In this document: in pieces, positions 19,506-25,281 of the stretch | How positions within the stretch are numbered: the stretch's first letter is position 1 | Layout: each line of letters opens with the position of its first letter | Assembly (NCBI GenBank): GCA_009726135.1 | Contig: WLIQ01000001.1 | Span: forward strand, 29,056-93,055 | Source: Actinomycetota bacterium | Lineage (GTDB): Bacteria > Actinomycetota > Actinomycetes > Nanopelagicales > Nanopelagicaceae | Direction: 5' to 3' | DNA: 64,000 bases | The notes under the pieces: generated by a model | Databases searched by the model: none | Seen by the model: the letters and a program-made list of their open reading frames with translations, nothing else | What the model was told of the DNA's origin: nothing | Position numbers and translations under genes: made by a program

Positions 19506-20686
19506 TTCTTCTCCTCATCGCGTGAAAGGAAACGTCCCCAAGCACGTCCGTCAGAACTAAGAGAAACACCTTGCCCGCCGACGATAGCCATCTCATAAAT
19601 CGAAAGAATTTGCTCGGCTACAACATCCCAATCAAATAATTGTGAACGAATTTTTCCAGCAGCAGCTAATGTTTTTCTCTTTGACTCATCACGCAATAGG
19701 TCGATAACTACTTTGGCCAATTCTGTAGAATTCTCGGATTCAAATAGCGCACCAAATTCTCCGCCACCTAAAAGTGAATCAAAAGCTGGAATATCACTTG
19801 CCACCACACATGCACCACCAGCTAGAGCTTCAGCCAAAATGATCCCAAAAGATTCTCCACCCGTATTGGGCGCGACATAGAGCGAGACCGAAGACATGAA
19901 ATCAGCCTTTTCTTTCTCTGAGATTTTCCCAAGGAATTCGAATCGATCGCGAAGTTGAGGGTCAATCTCTTTTTCGAAATCTTTAGAATCTCCAGGGCCT
20001 GCCACAAAAACCTTCACATCTGGTGCAAATCGAGCAATTATGGGAAGTGCATCAACTAAAACCTGCAGCCCTTTACGAGGTTCTTCAAATCGCCCGATAA
20101 AACCGATGGTATTTCCTGACCACTTTTGCTGTGCGACTCCATCTGAATATCGCTTGGCATAGATGCCGTTAGGGATAACAACAGCATCTGTTTCAAGATG
20201 ATCTGTAAGAGTTAAACGAGCCGCCTCGGAAACTGCAATGCGCGCGGAAAGTTTTTCAATTGCTGGCTCCAAAATTGGCCCAATAGCAAAAATAACTTTT
20301 TGACGTTTTGCGGCTGCATGAAAAGTCCCAACCATGGGACCTTCAGCTGCCCAACAAGCCAAGAGCGAAATGGATGGAATTGCAGGTTCGTGTAAGTGGA
20401 GTAAATCAAAATCTCCACTTCCGATCCACTGGCGCACTCTGGCATAAGCAATCGGACCAAAAAGAACTCGTGCAACTGCGCCGTTGTAAGGAATCGAAAT
20501 TGGTTTACCGGCGCTCACCACATAGTCGGGCAATTTCTCATCATCTAAAGCTGGCGCTAATACAGAAACAGTGTGGCCGGATACAATCAAGAATTCCGCC
20601 AAATCACGAACATGGTTTTGCACCCCACCTGGCGTATCCCAGCCATACGGACAAACTATTCCGATTTTTAGCTTCTTAGTGAGCAT
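19502..20686 (-). CDS. pimA: GT4 glycosyltransferase, likely phosphatidyl-myo-inositol mannosyltransferase
   Basis: KIGIVCPYGWDTPGGVQNHVRDLAEFL; adjacent to acyltransferase and pgsA. Confidence 0.85.
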   Translation of the reverse strand: MLTKKLKIGIVCPYGWDTPGGVQNHVRDLAEFLIVSGHTVSVLAPALDDEKLPDYVVSAGKPISIPYNGAVARVLFGPIAYARVRQWIGSGDFDLLHLHEPAIPSISLLACWAAEGPMVGTFHAAAKRQKVIFAIGPILEPAIEKLSARIAVSEAARLTLTDHLETDAVVIPNGIYAKRYSDGVAQQKWSGNTIGFIGRFEEPRKGLQVLVDALPIIARFAPDVKVFVAGPGDSKDFEKEIDPQLRDRFEFLGKISEKEKADFMSSVSLYVAPNTGGESFGIILAEALAGGACVVASDIPAFDSLLGGGEFGALFESENSTELAKVVIDLLRDESKRKTLAAAGKIRSQLFDWDVVAEQILSIYEMAIVGGQGVSLSSDGRAWGRFLSRDEEKK

Positions 20687-21570
20687 TATTGACGAACCTT
20701 AAAATCGCCATCAATCCAAATGCGCTGCATCATGTGCCAATCCTGTGGGTATCTAGAAATACCTTGAGCAAAAAGATCCGCACTTTTTTGAACAACTAAG
20801 GCTACGCGTTCACTTTCACTTCCTTGTGTTGGAATTTCGATAACTGTTAAGTCGATATGTATTCCAGCCTCAGTGTAAGAAATATATGCGCTAATCAGTG
20901 GGGCCCCGGTGCGAATGGCAAGTAGTGCAGGACCAGCCGGCATCCGCGCGGGACCGCCAAAGAAATTCACATCGATGCCAGATTTAGAAAGATCGCGATC
21001 AGCGGCAAGTGCGATAACACTCCCGCTTCGAATACGTTGCATCAATGTAGGAATAACTCGACCGTCTAACGGAAGAGATTCCATGCCGAAATTCTCACGG
21101 TACTGCATGAATTTTTTGAATAGCTTTTCAGGTTTTAAATGCTCAGCAACAGTGACAATTGTTGCGCCTCTCGCACAAAAATACGCTGCTGCATGATCAT
21201 AATTACCGCAGTGAGGTAGCGTCACGATGGCACCATTTCCGGCAGCGACCGCATCCATCAAAATACTTTCATCATTGACGGTAACGGTGCTCAGAATTCG
21301 CTCTTTTGACCAATCCGGAAATCTAAATACATCACACCAATATCGCAGTGCAGATCGCATTCCCTGATAAACAAGTAGGTCTAAATCTAAATCAGTGATG
21401 TTCGGTGAAGTTCGCGCCAAATTCGAACGCAACCGAGCAACACTCTTACCGTTCTTCTTTACAAGATAGTCAGCCACATCGTTGGCTTTGGAATACACAA
21501 AGGTTTCAGGCAGCCAGCGAAGAACTCGCCACGCACCAAAATATCCCCAAGCTGAAATATTTTCAATCAC
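20686..21570 (-). CDS. phosphatidylinositol mannoside acyltransferase (LpxL/HtrB family)
   Basis: TLPHCGNYDHAAAYFCARG, HxxxxD-like motif, synteny with pimA/pgsA. Confidence 0.85.
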   Translation of the reverse strand: MIENISAWGYFGAWRVLRWLPETFVYSKANDVADYLVKKNGKSVARLRSNLARTSPNITDLDLDLLVYQGMRSALRYWCDVFRFPDWSKERILSTVTVNDESILMDAVAAGNGAIVTLPHCGNYDHAAAYFCARGATIVTVAEHLKPEKLFKKFMQYRENFGMESLPLDGRVIPTLMQRIRSGSVIALAADRDLSKSGIDVNFFGGPARMPAGPALLAIRTGAPLISAYISYTEAGIHIDLTVIEIPTQGSESERVALVVQKSADLFAQGISRYPQDWHMMQRIWIDGDFKVRQ

Positions 21571-22166
21571 TTCAAAAAGGCCTTACGCACAATTAACATG
21601 CGTTGCACAACAGTGATGGCTCCAAGTGCTGCCAGCAACCACATTCCAATAGCTAATACATATGGAATTCCAAGCCCATCTAATGCAATCGCAGACATCG
21701 CCATAATTAACCTCTCAGTGCGTTCTGCAATTCCTCCACTACAAGCCACAGAAAAACTTTCAGCTTTGGCCCGAATGTATGGAACCAGTAGTCCGGTGAC
21801 TAAGGCGACGATGACTACAAAACTGAGATGGTCGCTCTGATTTATCAAATAAATACTGATACCCAATAAAATTGCAGAATCAGTTAATCGATCAATTGTG
21901 GAATCCAGAAAACTTCCCCACACACTTGCACCGTTTTTTGAGATACGAGCCATTGCTCCGTCAAAGAGATCACTTAAAGCAAATACCGCAATAACTGCAG
22001 TGCCAACAAAGAAATCTCCGCGAGGGTAAAAGAAGAGCGCAGATGTAATCACGCCGATAGCCCCTATCCAGGTCACCGCATTTGGAGTTATCCCAATTCG
22101 CAGGGCAAATGAGGCTACGGGTGTTATTAATCTCGTAACCGCTGGTTTCAAAGAACGACTTAACAT
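21567..22166 (-). CDS. pgsA: CDP-alcohol phosphatidyltransferase, likely phosphatidylinositol phosphate synthase
   Basis: SDLFDGAMARISKNGASVWGSFLDSTIDRLTD (CDP-OH-P signature); start moved to MLSRSLKPAV. Confidence 0.85.
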   Translation of the reverse strand: MLSRSLKPAVTRLITPVASFALRIGITPNAVTWIGAIGVITSALFFYPRGDFFVGTAVIAVFALSDLFDGAMARISKNGASVWGSFLDSTIDRLTDSAILLGISIYLINQSDHLSFVVIVALVTGLLVPYIRAKAESFSVACSGGIAERTERLIMAMSAIALDGLGIPYVLAIGMWLLAALGAITVVQRMLIVRKAFLK

Positions 22167-22190
22167 CACTGCACATCGTAGGCTGACCCA

Positions 22191-22772
22191 GTGCAGAATC
22201 ACACATCCGGCTTGAATCTTTGCGTCTTTGGCCACCCATCAGCGGCACCGACCGATGTTGCTGGTGCCTTAGGGGCGAGCATTGGCTCGAAGGCCTCTGG
22301 TGAAGTTTCGTTGGCAATATTTGCAATTAATCCCAATACTGGAATCGACCAAGAAACAATTGATCAATGGCAATCATTCGATGAATTTCTTACTCCACGC
22401 ATGATTCTCGTAACGCAACTAGATGGCAACAATGCAGATTTTGATGATGCCGTTATGTTGGCCACCCGTGTATTTGATCAGGTTGCAACTCCTTATTTAG
22501 TTTTACATGATGACGATGGTTCGCCACGGGCGTTAATCTCACTTTCTGACATGGTCGTCACTGATTATTCAACGACTCCTCCAACCCAAAATCCATGCGA
22601 ACCAGAGCATGAAACATTGGTGCAAGAGTTTCGCGATGAATATCTGGAACTTGTAACTTCTATGGGTGAAGGTGCTTTTGCAGCAGGCGTACTATTTCCA
22701 GCGATCCCTTTAGTCCTTGAAAATGGAATTGGGCTAGATGTTATAAAGCAATATCTAGCGCAACTCGTTTAG
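22191..22772 (+). CDS. truncated, motif-degenerate EF-G/EF-G2-like G-domain protein
   Basis: AIFAINPNTGIDQETIDQWQ..., PRMILVTQLDGNNADFDDAVMLATRVF and LVQEFRDEYLELV...FAAGVLFPAIPL...GIGLDVIKQYL resemble EF-G segments; P-loop and G3 absent. Confidence 0.6.
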   Translation: MQNHTSGLNLCVFGHPSAAPTDVAGALGASIGSKASGEVSLAIFAINPNTGIDQETIDQWQSFDEFLTPRMILVTQLDGNNADFDDAVMLATRVFDQVATPYLVLHDDDGSPRALISLSDMVVTDYSTTPPTQNPCEPEHETLVQEFRDEYLELVTSMGEGAFAAGVLFPAIPLVLENGIGLDVIKQYLAQLV

Positions 22773-22774
22773 TT

Positions 22775-23296
22775 CTACCAAGCTGCTGCGATTTCATCTC
22801 GCGTCAAATTCAATAACTGTGGCAGCACTTTAGTCTTGCCAATAATCGGCATGAAATTAGCGTCACCACTCCATCGAGGAACAACGTGCTGATGTATATG
22901 CTCTGCAACCCCTGCTCCGGATATTGCCCCTTGATTCATACCTAGGTTAAATCCGGCAGGTGCTGAAACTTTACGAATTGTTTTCATAGCGTGAGCAGTC
23001 AGTGCAGAAATTTCACTTCTTTCGTCATCACTTAAATCAGTCAAATCAGCGACATGGCGATATGCGCATACCAACAAGTGCCCAGGGTTATATGGATATA
23101 AATTCATCACAACGAAAGCCGTACTGCCTCGGTGAACTATTAATCCTTCTGAATCACTTAATGTAGGAATTCTGCAAAAGGGACACTCCACATCGTTGCC
23201 TTCTAATGGCCGGTTTTCACCACGTAAATACTCAAGGCGATGTGGTGCCCACAGGCGTTGCCAACCATCAGGCATCCCTGCGCCATCAATATCCAT
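22775..23296 (-). CDS. HIT domain protein
   Basis: CPFCRIP, NLYPYNPGHLLV, HIHQHVVPRW. Confidence 0.93.
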   Translation of the reverse strand: MDIDGAGMPDGWQRLWAPHRLEYLRGENRPLEGNDVECPFCRIPTLSDSEGLIVHRGSTAFVVMNLYPYNPGHLLVCAYRHVADLTDLSDDERSEISALTAHAMKTIRKVSAPAGFNLGMNQGAISGAGVAEHIHQHVVPRWSGDANFMPIIGKTKVLPQLLNLTRDEIAAAW

Positions 23297-23298
23297 GA

Positions 23299-25281
23299 TT
23301 AAACCTGGGTGCGTTCAGATACAGTTTTTTGAATTTCGGCAATCGCTTGCGCAATTGGGATTCCATTTTTCTGTTCACCATTGCGATAGCGGAATGAGAC
23401 AGCACCTGCTGCCATATCTTCCTCACCAGCAATAACCATAAATGGAACTTTCTGCATCTGTGCGTTTCGTACCTTTTTCTGCATACGATCATCGGAGGCA
23501 TCTAGCTCGGCGCGGATTCCAGCCTTCTTCATCTGCTTAATTACATCGGCTAAATAATCAGCAAAGGCTTCTGCAACTGGAATGCCAACTGCCTGGACTG
23601 GCGCAAGCCATGGTGGGAACGCTCCTGAATAGTGTTCAGTGAGAACACCAAAGAATCGTTCAATAGATCCAAACAATGCACGGTGAATCATGACAGGACG
23701 TTGGCGTGAGCCATCAGCTGCTGAATACTCAAGTTCAAATCGTTGCGGCAGTTGAAAATCCACTTGAATCGTTGACATCTGCCATGTGCGCCCAATGGCA
23801 TCTTTAGCTTGTACTGATATTTTCGGACCATAAAAAGCTGCGCCATCTTCATCTAAAACAAGTTCTAAGTTTTGCGCAACCGCTGCTTTTCGTAGGGTCT
23901 CGGTTGCTTCCTGCCAATCTGCGTCTTCTCCTACAAATTTTTCAGGATTTTTCGTAGAAAGTTCGAGATAGAAATCATTGAGACCATAGTCACGCAGCAA
24001 ATTGAGAACGAAAGTCAATAATGAATCCAGCTCATCAGCCATCTGTTCCTTTGTGCAGTAGATATGCGCGTCATCTTGCGTGAAGCCACGTGCACGCGTG
24101 ATGCCGTGAAGTACACCTGATTTTTCATAGCGATAGACCGTTCCAAATTCGAATAAGCGAAGCGGAAGCTCACGATAAGAGCGTTGACGAGCCTGGAAAA
24201 TTAAGTTGTGGAAGGGGCAGTTCATTGGCTTCATGTAGTACTGCTGGCCAGGTTTCTTTATAGTTCCATCTGCATGGAGTTCTTCGTCCATAATCATTGG
24301 TGGGTACATGCCTTCGGAATACCAATCCAAGTGGCCAGATTTTTCAAAGAGCGCTGCCTTGGTTAAGTGAGGCGAATAAACAAATTCATAATCTTCTTCT
24401 TCATGGCGCTTGCGCGAATAATCTTCCATCGCCCGGCGGATGATTCCTCCCTTAGGGTGAAACACTGCAAGACCAGAACCAATCTCTTCGGGAAATGAAA
24501 AGAGATCGAGTTCAGTTCCTAAACGGCGATGGTCGCGCTTTTCAGCTTCAGCTAAAAGTTCAAGATGGGCATTGAGTTCATCTTGTGAAGGCCATGCTGT
24601 TCCATAAATTCGTTGCAACATCGGATTTTTTTCAGATCCGCGCCAATACGCCGCCGCACTTCGCATTAATTTAAATGCAGGAATGAGTTTTGTTGAAGGC
24701 AGATGTGGACCTCGACAGAGATCGCCCCACACAGGATTTCCATCACGGCCTAAGTTGTCATAAATAGTGAGCTCTGCTCCCCCAACTTCCACACTTGCTT
24801 CTTCACCTGCTGGACCTTTTATGCCAATGAGTTCACATTTGTAAGGCTCGTGGGCAAGTTCTGCCAAGGCCTCAGTTTCGCTAACGACACGACGGCGAAA
24901 ACGTTGGCCGTCTTTAACAATCTTGCGCATTGTACTTTCAATCTTGATTAAATCCTCTGGATTAAAAGGAACCTTAGGATCAAAATCGTAATAAAAACCA
25001 TCCTTTATCGGCGGGCCAATTCCAAGTTTTGTCTCTGCATATATCTCTTGCACCGCTTGCGCCATTACGTGAGCAGTTGAATGTCGAAGCACAAAGAGCC
25101 CGTCAGGTGAAGAGATTAAGACTGATTCAATAACATCGCCATCTTTGAGATCTGTCCACAAATCTTTGAGGGCGCCATTAATGCGACAAACCACTACATC
25201 TTTGTTTTCGGCAAATAAGTGCGTAGGGCGTTGATCTACTTCTATGGAGCGCGATGCGCCATCAACGGTTACCTGAATCAT
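23299..25281 (-). CDS. thrS: threonyl-tRNA synthetase
   Basis: TGS domain, [35 protein letters not shown]. Confidence 0.98.

Follow-up and report, generated by a model that had tools for sequence, protein, structure and literature searches.

An order-wide family of EF-G2-derived pseudo-GTPases in Nanopelagicales

Between a pgsA-like gene and a HIT-family gene, the 64,000-nucleotide stretch of Nanopelagicales DNA analysed here (the window) holds a short open reading frame (ORF) whose product looks like a G domain of EF-G in which the GTPase motifs are gone. Such a gene raises the question of whether it is a decaying remnant or a working protein, and, if the latter, which part of a translational GTPase could be worth keeping when the GTP site is not.

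Descent from EF-G2 and the parts retained

The ORF occupies the plus strand in a block in which htrB, pgsA, HIT and thrS are all read from the minus strand (order htrB, pgsA, ORF, HIT, thrS; Table 1), and 24 bp separate its GTG from the start codon of the divergent pgsA. A likeness to EF-G and EF-G2, noticed by eye in the preliminary description, proved to be significant homology: the NCBIfam EF-G2 model (NF009377) matches residues 41-156 with E=3.7e-16, the M. smegmatis EF-G2 chain in PDB entry 9k0z matches with E=1.5e-11, and the family profile with E=4.4e-16. The EF-G2 match begins with G-domain strand four and takes in only model positions 104-219 of 700, its 58.7 bits lying far below the equivalog cut-off of 890 bits. 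A Pfam assignment of the protein to InPase (E=0.34) is a chance match only. The possibility of a chance ORF was considered and rejected. Contig ends account for the cut copies at two loci (L167 and L168, which were treated as full-length EF-G2) but not for closed frames.

Table 1. Coordinates of the ORF, its segments and its neighbours in the window, and of truncated EF-G2 genes at other loci (w, regional dN/dS)
Feature	Coordinates	Strand	Residues	w	Remarks
htrB-type gene, lysophospholipid/lipid A acyltransferase-like	20686..21570	-			member of conserved block
pgsA-like CDP-alcohol phosphatidyltransferase gene	21567..22166	-			syntenic neighbour, ATG at 22166
CATCGTAGGCT 11-mer, putative shared divergent promoter core	22174..22184	.			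between pgsA and ORF starts
Truncated EF-G2 pseudo-GTPase ORF	22191..22772	+	193 aa		GTG start, TAG stop
beta1/P-loop/alpha1 relic (VFGHPSAAPTD)	22218..22304	+	10-38	0.346	from alignment with a full-length EF-G2 (L066)
beta4, alpha3, former G4 strand	22305..22436	+	39-82	0.064	
alphaD (DFDDAV...) and G' strands (TPYLVLHDDDGSPRALISL...DY)	22437..22601	+	83-137	0.043	most invariant block
Counterpart of EF-G G' subdomain helix A (bL12-contact helix)	22602..22670	+	138-160	0.012	AlphaFold2 helix 138-158
Eroded G5 strand and last helix (FAAGVLFPAIPL...GIGLDVIKQYL)	22671..22769	+	161-193	0.081	
HIT-family gene	22775..23296	-			convergent neighbour of ORF
thrS	23299..25281	-			outer member of conserved block
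Truncated EF-G2 gene, family f38/f33	L163 5082-6092				pgsA-HIT locus
Truncated EF-G2 gene, family f38/f33	L164 4706-5392				pgsA-HIT locus
Truncated EF-G2 gene, family f38/f33	L165 5019-6116				pgsA-HIT locus
Truncated EF-G2 gene, family f38/f33	L166 5195-5980				pgsA-HIT locus

The motif losses first read from the letters are confirmed throughout. The P-loop site reads GHPSAAPTD and its lysine is gone; the G3 segment is absent, a deletion of roughly 50 residues, and both switches and the DTPG strand are lost; NKxD has become TQLD (22413-22424) and G5 is eroded; and nothing follows the G domain, so EF-G domains II-V are absent. Across 115 short homologues, a motif count found Walker A in none, DxPG in one and [NT]KxD in three. 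The protein is thus without nucleotide-binding motifs, and what remains is half of the Ras-like sheet together with the G' subdomain. Compared with actinobacterial EF-G2 (EFG II, FusA2; NF009377; 9k0z), it shares homologous residues 39-157, the gene neighbourhood, and the G' strands and helix, but lacks, besides the P-loop, switches, G3, NKxD and domains II-V, the second G' helix, which is deleted in the short form; it has 193 residues against about 700-740.

AlphaFold2, run on a 91-row alignment, returned a confident model (mean pLDDT 91, pTM 0.87) with the element order beta-alpha-beta-alpha-beta-alpha, four G' strands, a 21-residue helix, a strand and a last helix. The predicted fold would correspond to a Ras-like sheet minus its second and third strands, plus the G' subdomain. 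Its best Foldseek matches are EF-G structures, with E down to 3.2e-11; the highest TMq, 0.82, belongs to S. aureus EF-G, and M. smegmatis EF-G2 on the 70S ribosome (9k0z) gives a TMq of 0.70 with an rmsd of 2.1 over 176 columns. The structural search proposed in advance as a check therefore agrees with an EF-G fold.

Homologues were found in 192 of 201 genomes sampled across Nanopelagicales, mostly as open frames of about 195-200 codons, in 105 of the 108 near-complete genomes and in all 16 genera; the few genomes with no match are for the most part incomplete. Among the homologues are those of Actinobacteria bacterium IMCC19121, 85% identical to the window's protein, and of SCGC AAA044-N04; we take these two bacteria to be acI / Ca. 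Planktophila freshwater members of the order. The divergent pgsA and the convergent HIT-thrS pair flank the gene in nearly all fetched loci of the order, with a few local exceptions. In genus g36 (L039, L040), no HIT gene was found in the interval from the EF-G2 relic to thrS, in contrast to the other genera of the order that were examined.

In most of the class, that is, in other families, the pgsA-HIT-thrS slot is occupied by a full-length EF-G2, and EF-G-like genes do lie beside pgsA in actinobacteria, as the preliminary description had it. The order itself includes one genus (G184) with a full-length EF-G2 at the locus, its motifs intact (1094 bits against the cut-off of 890), and another (g31; L067-L070) with a pseudo-G domain of 343-349 aa that also has no Walker A; elsewhere in the order the form is about 195 aa. 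Two parts that are missing from the short form persist in the g31 protein, namely the second G' helix and a C-terminal stretch. The latter can be aligned with the last portion of EF-G2 domain V, and its model has the order beta-alpha-beta-beta-alpha-beta; it may be a domain-V relic, an assignment that is only tentative because pLDDT is low there. In g31, a gene for a putative membrane protein whose C-terminal segment is SHOCT-like has been inserted between pgsA and the relic (L067 2331-2918; L069 1552-2199) and overlaps the predicted start of the relic by about 38 bases.

In a tree of thrS, HIT, htrB and pgsA, these forms are nested, full-length first, then 349 aa, then short, and the truncated clade has 100% support. 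Given the shared pgsA-HIT-thrS locus and this nested truncation series, the gene is, as judged from sequence and synteny, orthologous by position to actinobacterial EF-G2 and has become reduced in Nanopelagicales; homology, synteny and the graded series together support the early suggestion of a pseudo-GTPase derived from EF-G2. Each complete genome with a truncated EF-G2 has one EF-G domain IV, which belongs to a 700 aa frame at another place (EF-G1), whereas G184 and the five outgroups tested have two. With a single domain IV per complete genome, the truncated form has therefore not been replaced by another full-length EF-G2. A domain-IV match was not found in the window's own genome, an 84% complete MAG, which we read as EF-G1 missing from an incomplete assembly because the closest complete relatives have one.

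Constraint on the short form

The preliminary description allowed that the gene could be a relic under drift. Slow pseudogene decay would fit the loss of all nucleotide-binding motifs, the fast evolution of the N-terminus (w 0.35-0.46, with 0.46 over the first nine codons), a frameshift in one member and the missing match in a few, mostly incomplete, genomes. Set against these are a median pairwise dN/dS of 0.080, far from 1 and comparable to that of pgsA (0.077), with htrB at 0.049, HIT at 0.043 and thrS at 0.030 (Nei-Gojobori, close members, pairs with dS below 1.5); frames of about 195 codons that stay open in nearly all of the 190+ genomes of a diverse order; retained invariant residues; a conserved -10 element at near-fixed spacing; and a confidently predicted fold. 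Residues G51, D83, L103, L105, G110, P173 and G181 are invariant in 91 diverse members, and many others are nearly so. The gene is under strong purifying selection. Because of the low dN/dS, the regional constraint, the invariant residues and the order-wide open frames, we reject the drift reading as very improbable. The one frameshifted copy (L004, from G008) is broken near residues 147-154 and comes from a partial MAG, in which a sequencing error is possible.

We also identified a putative promoter core, the 11-mer CATCGTAGGCT, in the gap between the two divergent start codons. Its TAGGCT half (22179-22184) matches a TANNNT -10 six bases 5' of the GTG of the ORF, while TACGAT on the minus strand (22180-22175) is a candidate -10 for pgsA; the 11-mer would thus form opposite, overlapping -10 boxes for two apparently leaderless genes. 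A -10 this close to the start codon is what one would expect of an actinobacterial gene transcribed without a leader. The 11-mer occurs once in the window, and 113 of 169 fetched loci each have exactly one copy; in nearly all of these, its TAGGCT half sits 6-8 bases upstream of the start codon. In 104 of 117 loci some candidate start has a TANNNT 5-8 bases away, whereas the expectation for a single fixed start is about 4%; the choice among candidate starts, however, inflates the observed figure. The full-length genus G184 and g31 keep the pgsA-side ATCGTA and have no TAGGCT; therefore, the ORF-side element belongs to the short clade. As far as sequence conservation can indicate, the ORF has a conserved promoter element of its own. 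We hold it to be nearly certain that the gene descends from EF-G2, is constrained and has lost the GTPase motifs.

What the G' subdomain may be kept for

The dead P-loop is under weak constraint (w 0.346) and the G' subdomain helix under the strongest (w 0.012); the most constrained part is thus the one that is known in EF-G for docking on the stalk. In Mtb EF-G1, residues E221, E225 and E228 of this helix contact bL12 (PMC8446442), and the C-terminal domain of bL12 binds translational GTPases (PMC12548414). The three glutamates align with E153, S157 and E160 of the window's protein, positions that are acidic in 77%, 39% and 76% of 115 members, and the median net charge of the members is -21. 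The E225 position is non-acidic also in the full-length EF-G2 of G184. Like the canonical G' subdomain of EF-G, the retained module has four short strands and a long acidic helix, with two of the three bL12-contact glutamates mostly acidic; unlike it, the module rests on half a Ras-like sheet with no GTPase engine attached.

We hypothesize that the retained G' face is the working surface of the protein. Its acidic helix would dock on the C-terminal domain of bL12, or on an equivalent partner of EF-G2, and the docked protein would be tethered to ribosomes or compete with translational GTPases for the stalk, whereby factor recruitment or translation may be tuned without GTP hydrolysis. That the protein may bind ribosomes, as the preliminary description suggested, is favoured indirectly by the extreme constraint on this helix and by the resemblance of the predicted fold to EF-G2 on the ribosome. 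To this main reading, a stand-alone, GTP-independent G' module that modulates factor recruitment from the bL12 stalk, the docking partner being the one we infer, we assign a probability of slightly under one half (about 0.45). Loss of the GTP site is easier to understand since M. smegmatis EF-G2 already has no ribosome-dependent GTPase activity, according to work cited in PMC3150367. A search of the open-access literature for MSMEG_6535, PDB 9K0Z, mycobacterial EF-G2 cryo-EM, and Nanopelagicales with EF-G found no paper.

The conservation of the G' subdomain could equally serve another partner, and the deletion of the second G' helix also counts against docking on bL12. The best conserved residues of the helix (E146, F147, E150 and Y151) differ from the reported bL12 contacts, although some may be structural, and one contact position is not kept, which makes a close rival of the reading in which a functional pseudo-GTPase has moved to a non-bL12 partner, such as another ribosomal protein, EF-G1 or a non-ribosomal protein, through the conserved TPYLVLHDDDG...ALI / DY / EHxxLVxEF surface. 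The top invariants span the whole fold (G51, D83-F84-D86, T100-H106, G110, E139-H140, F147, E150, P170, P173 and G181), and the short form no longer has the domains by which EF-G is held on the ribosome. However, a full-length EF-G2 (L066) already has several of these invariants, so they do not point to a clearly new interface, and other truncations retain the same inherited core; we regard a change of partner as a serious possibility that falls short of an even chance.

Stalk docking by the short form also has to be set beside a more conservative reading, in which full-length EF-G2 is itself mainly a non-GTPase ligand of the ribosome, a job that the short form would continue in reduced form, for instance by shielding idle ribosomes, with nothing new added. 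The title of PDB entry 9k0z places M. smegmatis EF-G2 on the 70S ribosome, and truncation has been tolerated several times, as such a reading would have it. Most ribosome contacts of EF-G, however, are made by domains II-V, which the short form lacks; it is therefore unlikely to bind in the same way, and we consider this explanation improbable.

Probable recurrence of the truncation, and its significance

A class-wide profile search recovered shortened EF-G2 frames in two further families. In f33 there are forms of 228, 261 and 365 aa, with a full-length protein in neighbouring genera and in one relative of the same genus; in f38, forms of about 340 aa occur in most sampled genomes of the main genus. 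They share with the Nanopelagicales gene the pgsA-HIT locus and a retained core at A1 columns of about 36-162, a stretch that profile comparison finds kept in L163, L164 and L166 with a probability of 96.6-98.9%. They differ from it in length (228-365 aa) and in their tails, and in L165 part of domain II is present, as is a stretch resembling a P-loop. On the four-gene tree, at least three independent truncations at the locus are likely, support inside f33 being moderate. Matches with in-frame stops were seen in three f33 genomes (G381, G405 and G414), the stops lying in profile extensions; the matches in G405 and G414, at profile positions of about 106-296, are EF-G2-like and possibly true pseudogenes of a truncated form.

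A bolder generalisation is that EF-G2 was turned into a GTP-independent, stalk-binding regulator repeatedly, at least three times at one locus, in actinobacterial lineages of which several have small genomes. We judge this unlikely on present evidence; if true, the G' module alone would be the core of a new kind of translation factor.

More generally, the gene represents a conserved, order-wide family of EF-G2-derived pseudo-GTPases with parallels elsewhere in the class. Together these genes amount to a series of deletions made by evolution in a translational GTPase, in which the G' module is kept while the GTP site and the domains for tRNA and the decoding centre are discarded, and a protein of 193 residues makes the role of EF-G2 directly testable. 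The host organisms are among the most abundant bacteria of lakes, and a gene carried order-wide in so streamlined a genome probably does not have a trivial role.
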